This document shows positions 7,591 to 54,689 of a stretch of DNA of 64,000 nucleotides, in pieces. The position numbers and the translations under genes are program-made. Numbering within the stretch: position 1 is the stretch's first letter; each line of letters begins with the position of its first letter. Origin of the DNA: Syntrophomonadaceae bacterium (lineage in GTDB: Bacteria; Bacillota; Syntrophomonadia; Syntrophomonadales; Syntrophomonadaceae); NCBI GenBank assembly GCA_028706315.1, contig JAQWBP010000001.1:72206-136205 (forward strand), given 5' to 3'. The notes under the pieces were generated by a model. That model ran no database searches. It worked only from the letters and a program-made list of their open reading frames with translations, and had not been told where the DNA came from.

Positions 7591-7660
7591 ATAAAAATTC
7601 GCTAGTAAAGAGGAAAATCAAGTCTTTTGTTGTATTTCTATTTATGAGTTTTTAACAGCA

Positions 7661-7677
7661 AGAGGTGCGATAAAATT
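7661..7677 (+). promoter_or_regulatory. Ribosome site and ATT start of ftsA
   Basis: AGAGGTG (7661-7667) is followed after seven bases by ATT (7675-7677), then AAG AAA AGG. No ATG, GTG or TTG exists in this frame between the upstream stop (7645-7647) and the GTG at 7786, which is too far inside the protein. AGAGGTG is the same ribosome-site core used before topA and sigG in this window. Confidence 0.75.
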
Positions 7678-8904
7678 AAGAAAAGGAATATTGTAGTCAG
7701 TCTGGATGTTGGAACTAGTACTACAAAAGTAGCCCTTGCCGAGATACACCATTACGATGATATTAATATACTAGGAGTAGCGCAGGTGCCTTCACTGGGA
7801 TTGCGCAAAGGGAATATAATTGATATCGAAAGCACTGCCAAAGCTATCGATAATTGCCTAAACGATCTGGAAAGATTAACTGGAGTACCAATATATAGCA
7901 CAATCGCTGGATTTTCTGGGACAAGTATTTCTGCTATAAATAATCACGCAGTAGTAGCGGTAGGAAATCCCAATAATGAGATTACTGCAGAAGATAAAGA
8001 AAGGGTTATTCATTCTGCCCGTAATGTAGCCCTACCACCAGACAAAACTGTTATTCAGATAATTGAGCGACAGTATATAGTAGATGGTTATGATGGCGTA
8101 AAAGACCCGGTAGGAATGGTGGGCAGCAGGTTAGAAGCGGAAGTGACCATTATTATCGCTGCTACGGCAGCCATTCAAAATATGCAAAGAAGTACCCAGC
8201 GGATAAACCTGCAACTTAGTAACATTGTCTATAATCCTTTATTAGTTAGTGAAACAGTTTTATTACCTGCGGAAAAAGAAATGGGCGTAGTATTGATGGA
8301 TATTGGCGCAGGCACTATAGACATAAGCTTTTTTGCAGCAGGAAGTATTCTATATACATCTGTCCTGCCTGTGGGCGGAGAATATATAACTAAAGATTTG
8401 GCGATTGTACTTAGAACATCACTTGAGGAAGCAGCTAGAATAAAAAAAGATTATGGTATTGCGAGCCCGGAGATGGCCGACAGTAGTACCCTAATAGAAG
8501 TGCGGAATATCCAGGGAAAAGAGGTAAAACAGGTATCTCAGGAAGTAGTCTCAGAAATAATTAATGCCAGGGTTGTTGAAATTATCGAAATGATTTATGC
8601 TGAACTAAACCAGTTTGAATGTTGGGATCGGATTCCGGGTGGAATTGTCTTAACTGGAGGAGGAGCCGAGCTAGCAGGAATAACAGGGGTAATGGAGAAA
8701 TACTTAAATGTTCCGGTACGGTTGGGAGTTCCGGATAACTTGAGGGGGATTCCGGCTGATTTTAGCCGGCCGAGGAATGCGTCTGTGCTTGGTGGTTTGG
8801 TTTATTCAGCTAAGAACTTAGAGATTGCATATGATGAAGAAGGTCAGGGCTTAACCAGCATTTTTAATAGAATATCTTATTGGTTTATAGATTTATTCAG
8901 GTAG
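7675..8904 (+). CDS. ftsA: Cell division protein FtsA (actin-like), probable ATT start
   Basis: Actin-family ATPase that tethers FtsZ to the membrane. From ATT at 7675 the protein is 409 residues, the normal length. Its N-terminus, KKRNIVVSLDVGTSTTKVAL, is the FtsA phosphate-1 loop, which a start at GTG 7786 would remove. Further signatures are MDIGAGTIDISFF (phosphate-2), GGEYITKDLAIVL (1C domain boundary) and IVLTGGGAELAG (adenosine site). The C-terminus has RISYWFIDLF, an amphipathic membrane-targeting helix. Either a rare ATT initiation codon is used or the base is a sequencing or assembly error. ftsZ starts 18 bases after the stop. Confidence 0.93.
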   Translation: MKKRNIVVSLDVGTSTTKVALAEIHHYDDINILGVAQVPSLGLRKGNIIDIESTAKAIDNCLNDLERLTGVPIYSTIAGFSGTSISAINNHAVVAVGNPNNEITAEDKERVIHSARNVALPPDKTVIQIIERQYIVDGYDGVKDPVGMVGSRLEAEVTIIIAATAAIQNMQRSTQRINLQLSNIVYNPLLVSETVLLPAEKEMGVVLMDIGAGTIDISFFAAGSILYTSVLPVGGEYITKDLAIVLRTSLEEAARIKKDYGIASPEMADSSTLIEVRNIQGKEVKQVSQEVVSEIINARVVEIIEMIYAELNQFECWDRIPGGIVLTGGGAELAGITGVMEKYLNVPVRLGVPDNLRGIPADFSRPRNASVLGGLVYSAKNLEIAYDEEGQGLTSIFNRISYWFIDLFR

Positions 8905-8922: not shown

Positions 8923-9984
8923 ATGCCGTTAGACTTTGATGTAGAATTTAAGCAATTTGCAGATATTAAAGTTATTGGTGTAGGAGGCGGGGGAAACAAT
9001 GCCGTAAATCGCATGATTGAGGCAGGTCTTAAAGGAGTAGAATTTATTAGCGTAAATACAGATGCCCAAGCCTTGTATTTATCTAAGGCGGAAAAGAAAA
9101 TTCAGGTAGGTGAAAAACTTACTAAAGGTCTTGGTGCAGGTGCGGATCCCGACATTGGGATGAAAGCTGCCGAAGAGAGTACAGATGAGATAAAAAAGGC
9201 TTTACAGGGAGCTGATATGGTTTTTGTTACTGCTGGAATGGGGGGCGGTACAGGAACAGGGGGAGCTCCAGTTATAGCTAAATTGTCTAAAGAAATTGGT
9301 GCACTAACTGTTGGTGTAGTAACTAAGCCTTTTACGTTTGAAGGCAGAAAAAGGAATTCCCAGGCAGAACGAGGAATACAAGCTTTAAGAGAGGCTGTTG
9401 ATAGCCTTATTACTATACCTAATGACAGATTACTACAAGTAGTAGATAAGAACACCGGATTTAACGATGCTTTTAAAATAGCGGATGATATACTTCGCCA
9501 GGGAGTCCAGGGTATATCAGATTTAATTGCTGTACCTGGTGTTATCAACTGCGATTTCGCTGATGTTCAAACCGTGATGCAGAATACAGGTTCTGCTTTA
9601 ATGGGTATCGGGATGGCTAAAGGGGATAGCCGGGCAGCGGAAGCAGCACGTATGGCCATATCAAGTCCGTTACTGGAAACTTCCATAGAAGGGGCTAAAG
9701 GTGTTCTATTTAATATAAGTGGTGGTAATGATCTGACCCTCTTTGAAATCAATGAAGCGGCAGAGATAATTCACCAGGCTGCCGATGTAGAAGCTAACAT
9801 AATATTTGGCGCTAATATTGATGAGAATTTAGAAGATGAGGTCAGGGTAACAGTTATTGCAACCGGGTTTAATACACCCAGACCCCAGGTCGCCGAGCCA
9901 CAGAGAATTCGTGGTATGGAATCTCCTCCTTCATTTTTAGATAAAAGTGATCTAGAGATACCGCCATTTCTCAGAAAAAAATAA
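8923..9984 (+). CDS. ftsZ: Cell division GTPase FtsZ
   Basis: Tubulin-like GTPase forming the Z ring, 353 residues. The GTP site GGGTGTG lies at about 108-114 within [28 protein letters not shown] at about 19-32, the T7 loop region [11 protein letters not shown] and the C-terminal peptide IPPFLRKK (binding FtsA and other partners) are all present, with a rather short linker before the tail. ATG at 8923 follows AGAGGAGG. A terminator follows, so it is the last gene of the ftsQ unit. Confidence 0.98.
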
Positions 9985-31086: not shown

Positions 31087-32454
31087 GTGACAGGGGCAGA
31101 ATTTCAGGGACTTGCCTTTAAACTACCTAGCAATAAGCCGCCCGGCAAAACATTCGGACAGAAAAACTTTGTCGGCCAGGCTGAATCAAGACAGAGCAAA
31201 TTTAATCGGGAACTAAATCGAGCAACTGGGAAGGAAAAGTCTAATCAAAAACCGGAGATATTTGATAGTCCTGACGGGCAAGCAGTAGAGCAGCAGGCAC
31301 CAATAGAGACAAAGCGTGATGAAGTTTGTAAGACAGCTGAGCAACCAGTTTTGGTCGAAGAAGTGCCGGGAAACCCATCAGAAACAGTACAAAAGTTAGT
31401 CGTAAATATGCCTGAAGTGAGCGAAGTAATTAACGAAGAAACGTTAACTCCAATAGCAGCGGATAAAAATCGTACTAATGCAGACGTGGGAAATCGACTG
31501 TTGCTATCGCGAGATGCTCCACCATTAGTAGTTAACGAAAGTCTAACTAAGGTGGATCAGGAAAATGCAGCAGGGAAACAAGATAATAAGGGAGCGGCTT
31601 TCAGGGTAGTTCCCGGTGTAGAACAAGTCGATAATAGCAAAGTAGTTAACTCGAACACAAAAGAAGTGCAGGTTGCAACTACAGAGAATACAGATAAGCC
31701 CATAGCAAGGGATTTAGAGATGGTCTCACGTACTCAGGTCACTGTAACTAGCGACCAGATAGAGCAAAAGGCAGCTGATAAGACTGATGTCAAAAAAATT
31801 ATTGATTTTGAAAACCATCGTTTGAGTGCTAGCAAGTTAAGTAGTACTGAAGAGTCAGAGCCAGAAACTAATACAGGAAAAAACGATGAAGGCAGCAAAA
31901 GCCTTGGGCTGACTACCAGGTTGGACACGGTTACAGATAAAAATACTTCCCGGGAATTTAACTTACCAGAAGCTAATAAGTTGCCGGTAAATACTAGGGA
32001 GTTTGTTGATCAGGTAGTTAAAAAAGCCGAACTAATCATAAAATCAGGTGCCTCAGAAATGAAGATTGATTTAAAACCTGAATTTCTAGGGAAATTAACC
32101 ATCAAAATAATTGCTGAAGATAGTGGGATTACTGCCAGATTCATAACTGAAAACAGCCAGGTAAAACATCTGCTAGAGGGAAACCTGCACACTTTAAAAC
32201 AAGCGCTGGAGTCCCAGGGGATCAAAGTAGAAAAAACCGAGGTTAATGTGCAGCTAAATAATAGTGGTATGTTTGATGGCTCTGAGAGTGAACGCCAGGA
32301 TTTATGGCAGCAGTCACATTCGGATCACTCGTTTCGGGAGTCCTATTATTCTGAAGAATATGGTTATAACGAAGGACTTGATGAACTCGCTGCAGATGAT
32401 TCTACCCGCAAGTATGGGTTTCGTGAAGATGGTAGCATGAATTTTCTTATTTAG
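31087..32454 (+). CDS. fliK: Flagellar hook-length control protein FliK
   Basis: Secreted molecular ruler and substrate-specificity switch, 455 residues. A long low-complexity, hydrophilic N-terminal part (about 1-330, variable) is followed by the conserved C-terminal FliK domain with LKPEFLGKLTIKIIAEDSG, then NLHTLKQALESQGIKVEKTEV. I start it at GTG 31087 because AAAGGAGGT at 31072-31080 precedes it by six bases. An in-frame GTG at 31003 would translate the repeat hairpin. Confidence 0.88.
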   Translation: MTGAEFQGLAFKLPSNKPPGKTFGQKNFVGQAESRQSKFNRELNRATGKEKSNQKPEIFDSPDGQAVEQQAPIETKRDEVCKTAEQPVLVEEVPGNPSETVQKLVVNMPEVSEVINEETLTPIAADKNRTNADVGNRLLLSRDAPPLVVNESLTKVDQENAAGKQDNKGAAFRVVPGVEQVDNSKVVNSNTKEVQVATTENTDKPIARDLEMVSRTQVTVTSDQIEQKAADKTDVKKIIDFENHRLSASKLSSTEESEPETNTGKNDEGSKSLGLTTRLDTVTDKNTSREFNLPEANKLPVNTREFVDQVVKKAELIIKSGASEMKIDLKPEFLGKLTIKIIAEDSGITARFITENSQVKHLLEGNLHTLKQALESQGIKVEKTEVNVQLNNSGMFDGSESERQDLWQQSHSDHSFRESYYSEEYGYNEGLDELAADDSTRKYGFREDGSMNFLI

Positions 32455-54162: not shown

Positions 54163-54185
54163 GGCGGTGAGACTGTATTACTACC

Positions 54186-54689
54186 GTGTTTTTAATCGCA
54201 ATAATATTGCTGATATTAATACTATTATATAATATTTATACACAGCGGCAATTGATAAAAAGCTACTCAGGTAATCTGCGTGAACTTATTGATGAAGCAG
54301 ATGCTGTAAAGAGGGATCTAGAAACGTTAATGGATGGGGCAGTAAATTTGTCTCGGCAGATTATCGAAGATCTGGATGGCAAAATCCAGGTGGCAGCTAC
54401 AAATCAAGCGCAGCAGGTTGAAGTTAAAGATAACTACCAGGAAGCGGCAGAAAAACAGGAACAGGATAAACAAGTAGCAGCAGCTTATCTGGCTCAGATA
54501 GATGCGGAAAAGAGTTCCCCTATGGTTCAAGAACAGGAGCCTGATTATTTTGTCATGCACCCATATATTGCGGTTAAAACCTTGTATAATAATGGTTTAA
54601 CTGTGACGGAAATTGCTAAGACATTAGGTAGGGGCCAGGGTGAGGTAAAATTAATACTTAATCTTTGTACTAAAAAGAAGGCTATCTAA
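54186..54689 (+). CDS. Membrane-anchored protein with HTH-like C-terminus (SwrB/DUF6115-like)
   Basis: 167 residues as written. One N-terminal membrane segment (about 1-16), a coiled-coil region (about 25-80), a Gln-rich linker, and a helix-turn-helix-like end IAVKTLYNNGLTVTEIAKTL followed by GRGQGEVKLILNL. Same layout as the SwrB/DUF6115 proteins that end flagellar operons in Firmicutes. The GTG at 54186 lies 14 bases from the GGTGAG site. ATT at 54177 has a better distance and would add three residues (ITT), so the true start is uncertain. Confidence 0.75.
   Translation: MFLIAIILLILILLYNIYTQRQLIKSYSGNLRELIDEADAVKRDLETLMDGAVNLSRQIIEDLDGKIQVAATNQAQQVEVKDNYQEAAEKQEQDKQVAAAYLAQIDAEKSSPMVQEQEPDYFVMHPYIAVKTLYNNGLTVTEIAKTLGRGQGEVKLILNLCTKKKAI

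Follow-up and report, generated by a model that had tools for sequence, protein, structure and literature searches.

The window, a 64,000-nucleotide stretch belonging to contig 74 of the draft assembly G000, comes from a member of the Syntrophomonadaceae, a family of anaerobic bacteria. On its forward strand it carries ftsA (7675..8904; 409 codons plus stop) and, directly next to it, ftsZ (8923..9984, +), the gene order expected of FtsA in a division cluster. While ftsZ has an ordinary ATG behind a strong Shine-Dalgarno sequence (SD; -13.9 kcal/mol), ftsA is preceded by a weaker SD, AGAGGTG (7661..7667, +; duplex energy over the SD window -9.5 kcal/mol). Seven bases, CGATAAA (7668-7674), separate this SD from an ATT at 7675..7677 (+), and reading from the ATT gives IKKRNIVVSLDVGTSTTK, so that the N-terminus of FtsA with its phosphate-1 loop comes immediately after this codon. 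The open frame runs stop to stop from 7648 to 8904 after a TGA at 7645-7647. A preliminary description of this DNA had reported the same arrangement of SD, seven bases and ATT, and it proved exact when the letters were read again.

The preliminary description had also claimed that the frame holds no standard start before a GTG at 7786 and that initiation there would remove the phosphate-1 loop. A frame scan bore this out, with no ATG, GTG or TTG between 7648 and 7785; with the GTG (7786..7788, +) as the start, codons 1-37 would be lost, the DVGTS of the phosphate-1 loop among them. The 409-aa product initiated at the ATT matches the ftsA profile TIGR01174 with 354 bits (curated cut-off 176) over profile positions 2-367 of 371, beginning at residue 7 of the product, and its PDB alignment to the solved FtsA structure 7q6d begins at query residue 4. 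A product begun at GTG 7786 matches TIGR01174 only from profile position 34. No standard start in the window frame fits a full-length FtsA, as expected of genes with a non-canonical ATH (ATT, ATC or ATA) start.

Conservation of the ftsA start codon

We read ftsA at 49 loci, one per genome, from about 22 genera of Syntrophomonadaceae, the window included. The aligned codon was ATT at 38 loci (window included), ATC at 10 and, displaced by one codon, GTG at the remaining locus. The preliminary description had looked to relatives for a decision, naming an ATT conserved at the same position as support and standard starts in all relatives as refutation. Inside the family the support is strong and the refutation fails: with ATT or ATC at 48 of 49 loci, the ATT at the aligned site is more than chance. 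The flanking codons vary, with K, N, S, R or I as the most common next residue, and in three genomes (G020, G034 and G073) the ATT lies one residue nearer to the conserved part of FtsA. Among sister families of the same order, ftsA starts with GTG in f2 and with ATG or GTG in f3; more distant families mostly use TTG, GTG or ATG.

The conservation bears directly on whether a sequencing or assembly error turned an ATG into ATT. Although the source is a draft assembly of 94 contigs, 47 other family genomes have ATT or ATC at this position, including the single-contig genomes G003 and G020, and we rejected this explanation as having a negligible probability.

An FtsA tree was built without the start codon, and the codon states were mapped on it. 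Weak versus standard starts required two changes: the weak start was gained once, on the family stem, and lost once, in G068. The codon states themselves changed eight times in all, about five of which we read as ATT to ATC, and no change of the ftsA start codon itself from ATT to ATG was found on the tree within the family. In other prokaryote groups, switches from AUG to AUU starts are extremely rare (1 of 61,358 AUG starts; PMC5622118).

Initiation context of ftsA

We weighed the possibility that translation begins elsewhere, either at an in-frame GTG or ATG upstream in some species or at a GTG, TTG or ATG downstream, giving a truncated FtsA. An in-frame standard codon lies one to three codons upstream in nine of the 48 ATH relatives: GTG at -3 in G020, G034, G073 and G017, GTG at -2 in G008, ATG at -1, -2 and -3 in G004, G012 and G014, respectively, and TTG at -2 in G013. 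These codons might be used in place of the ATH, and conservation of isoleucine only would also fit an internal residue, if translation somehow began upstream. However, the upstream standard codon overlaps or abuts the SD in most of the nine relatives, as do most of the GTGs. No upstream standard start exists in the open frame at 32 of 48 ATH loci; the window is among them. At 31 of the 49 ftsA loci, the frame is interrupted by a stop no more than about ten codons upstream. A downstream start would be the forced choice, at 7786 or later in the window, of a gene caller restricted to ATG, GTG and TTG. Yet at 12 of the 32 loci without an upstream start (window included), the first downstream standard start falls beyond the DxGT phosphate-1 loop, so that in at least these 12 it would cost FtsA its first strand as well as the loop. 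We consider a start elsewhere very improbable as a general explanation, and for the window it is contradicted, while certain lineages could have evaded the weak ftsA start; G004, with an ATG directly before the ATT, looks like a true escape. For ftsA as a whole, the comparison across the family lends strong support to initiation at AUU.

The position of the SD is in keeping with initiation at the ATH. In 36 of 41 instances the GGTG-type SD and the ATH are exactly 7 nt apart, and the SD spacing of ordinary genes in the complete relative G003 peaks at 5-8 nt, a range that covers the 7 nt of ftsA. The strength of the ftsA SD is average, with a family median of -9.8 kcal/mol against -10.7 kcal/mol for all G003 genes. 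An extended SD offsetting the weak codon, as in Staphylococcus aureus, was thus not found for the family ftsA; it is a trait of the S. aureus cases and not a requirement for all genes with ATH starts. The mRNA at the ftsA start was likewise not unusually open when the family median (-8.3 kcal/mol) was compared with G003 genes (-5.6 kcal/mol; window, -4.4 kcal/mol), so the way in which the weak start works across the family is not accounted for by low structure.

The SD contains an out-of-frame GTG, which in the window opens a minimal frame (GTG CGA TAA). If this frame were translated, it could feed the ATT by termination-reinitiation or frameshifting. Most relatives have this GTG, and in many its frame ends near the ATT. 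However, the GTG belongs to the SD and has no SD of its own, it is missing in G022, G002, G024, G063, G064, G012 and G030, and in G020 it is in frame with ftsA. Since several relatives lack the GTG or have it in a different frame, we discarded this route, which we regard as highly improbable. An unusual initiator tRNA for AUU was also rejected: ARAGORN found 39 tRNAs in G003 (2.36 Mb), three of them with ordinary CAT anticodons.

Other weak starts in these genomes

The infC gene, encoding IF3, starts with ATC (24) or ATT (5) in 29 of 29 family genomes, with ATC in the genome of the window. The SD before this codon is always GG(A/G)GGTG; in G003 it is GGAGGTG, at -16.2 kcal/mol. In the genome of the window and in most family members read, the gene for RNase Y shows ATA, ATT or ATC immediately behind a strong SD; G011 has ATG, and in several members an in-frame GTG overlaps the SD. 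As read from these sequences, ftsA is one of a small putative class of weakly started genes, together with infC, RNase Y in most genomes read, and probably others.

A genome-wide scan of G003 at the strictest threshold returned 14 ATT starts against 3.3 expected, 4 ATC against 0.5 and 6 ATA against 3.6, counts that are to be read as noisy, as false positives occurred (the interior of the intact codY in the window was flagged, for example). Apart from infC and RNase Y, individual hits are for this reason leads only. Candidate ATT or ATA starts on G003:C1, with protein names taken from a reading of the sequences, lie at 1796133 (-; RNase R), 318542 (+; CobA/CobO-like), 1238088 (+; lysine 2,3-aminomutase-like), 2093982 (+; YkvI-like) and 716801 (-; DUF523-like). 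The RNase R gene of another relative (G016:C59:34788-36884) has one in-frame TAG.

Several further observations concern the same kind of start. For RNase Y, an apparent ATA, ATT or ATC start directly follows GGAGGTG near 31455 of G000:C46 (L350) and across loci L333-L360; L341, L355, L356 and L359 are among several with no standard start before the membrane helix, and an apparent ATH start is also seen in several other families. Within the window, the frame of a membrane/coiled-coil protein at 54177-54689 (+) seems to open at an ATT (54177) after GAGGCGGTGA. Its first well-scored ATG comes 51 codons later, making this a possible second ATT start.

Proposed translation of ftsA

We propose that ftsA is translated from AUU 7675 at a low, IF3-sensitive yield next to ftsZ, and we give this reading a probability of roughly 0.8. 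The SD 7 nt upstream would place the ribosome, and the normal initiator tRNA would read the AUU as formyl-methionine. Pairing of AUU or AUC with the initiator anticodon would be imperfect, and since initiation would then be slow and discriminated against by IF3, FtsA would be made at low yield beside the strongly initiated ftsZ. Initiation complexes are known to be destabilised by IF3 unless the start codon is AUG, GUG or UUG (PMC5472188), and in Escherichia coli FtsZ and FtsA are present at a ratio of about 5:1 that matters for division (PMC9628754). FtsA yield would be expected to rise when IF3 activity drops, as for infC, and the same class of start in infC of these genomes adds weight to the link to IF3. 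Occurrence of the weak start throughout the family suggests that FtsA production may be held low and tied to IF3; initiation at this codon, the low yield, the IF3 dependence and the purpose of keeping FtsA below FtsZ are what we infer from the sequences.

It is also possible, if doubtful, that the ATT is used as a weak codon with no regulatory role, which drift fixed a single time in the ancestor of the family and which is tolerated as FtsA is needed at a low level, with no meaningful control by IF3. The single origin on the FtsA tree would agree with this, as would the apparent presence of ATH starts in functionally unrelated genes of the family. Drift accounts less readily for the several changes to ATC and none to ATG, even though a single base change would give ATG and AUG is the generally preferred start, nor would it predict that weakly started genes such as infC and RNase Y hold ATH over many genera.

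More tentatively, infC, ftsA, RNase Y and perhaps RNase R and others could form an IF3-dosed translational regulon of ATT, ATC and ATA starts in the Syntrophomonadaceae. If so, cell division and RNA turnover in these slow-growing syntrophs would be coupled through such a regulon to the capacity for initiation.

Comparison with known weak starts

Non-standard start codons are established for only a few bacterial genes. Among the closest known cases is infC, whose AUU, AUC or AUA start is autoregulated by IF3. Like ftsA, it has a conserved, SD-led start of the same codon class, and the infC case is present in these genomes too. The two differ in that infC follows a perfect, extended SD and codes for the very factor that discriminates, whereas ftsA has an average SD and a cell-division product. 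In Streptomyces, the GTC start of sigR is repressed by IF3, and the level of sigR relative to its partner depends on IF3 (PMC5472188). As we infer for ftsA, a lineage-conserved weak start holds a regulator below the partner encoded next door, and the sigR start was likewise misannotated by gene finders. The codon, gene and phylum differ, and IF3 dependence is experimental for sigR whereas it is only predicted for ftsA. Conserved AUU or AUA starts after SDs are also found in ccpN of S. aureus and Bacillus subtilis (AUA) and in cvfC1 of S. aureus (AUU) (PMC13009471). These genes rely on extended SDs, whereas ftsA has an average SD and a cytoskeletal division product. Reporters with S. aureus AUU or AUA starts gave about 10% of the AUG level, with ccpN reaching as much as 30% in rich medium (PMC13009471).

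Weak starts that have been conserved, in some cases with demonstrated IF3 control, are thus a known kind (infC, sigR, ccpN and cvfC1). In the open-licence literature we found no report of ftsA with a non-standard start, nor of such an ftsA start fixed across a family. The family-wide weak ftsA start would be a natural case of start-codon identity apparently selected to stay poor, in a gene whose balance with FtsZ is known to be important in E. coli. It opens a link between IF3 and division to direct testing. By implication, automatic annotation that accepts only ATG, GTG and TTG cuts short or misplaces the start of FtsA in these genomes, and probably does the same to RNase Y and others.

A conserved element upstream of ftsA

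Upstream of the SD, the window contains AGGAAAA, 11 nt and GTTGTATTT (7611..7637, +), a slightly diverged version of a family element, AGGAATA-N11-GTGGTATTT, that is kept about 35-60 nt before the ATH in most relatives. This element is probably the ftsA promoter and would give a leader of about 30 nt. A pattern search of G003 gave no convincing other sites for AGGAATA-N11-GTGGTAT that would point to a shared regulon. The first half of the element resembles a SigH -35 box, and the second half has no match to the SigH -10. In sister families, the element upstream of ftsA appears as GTGGTAATA.
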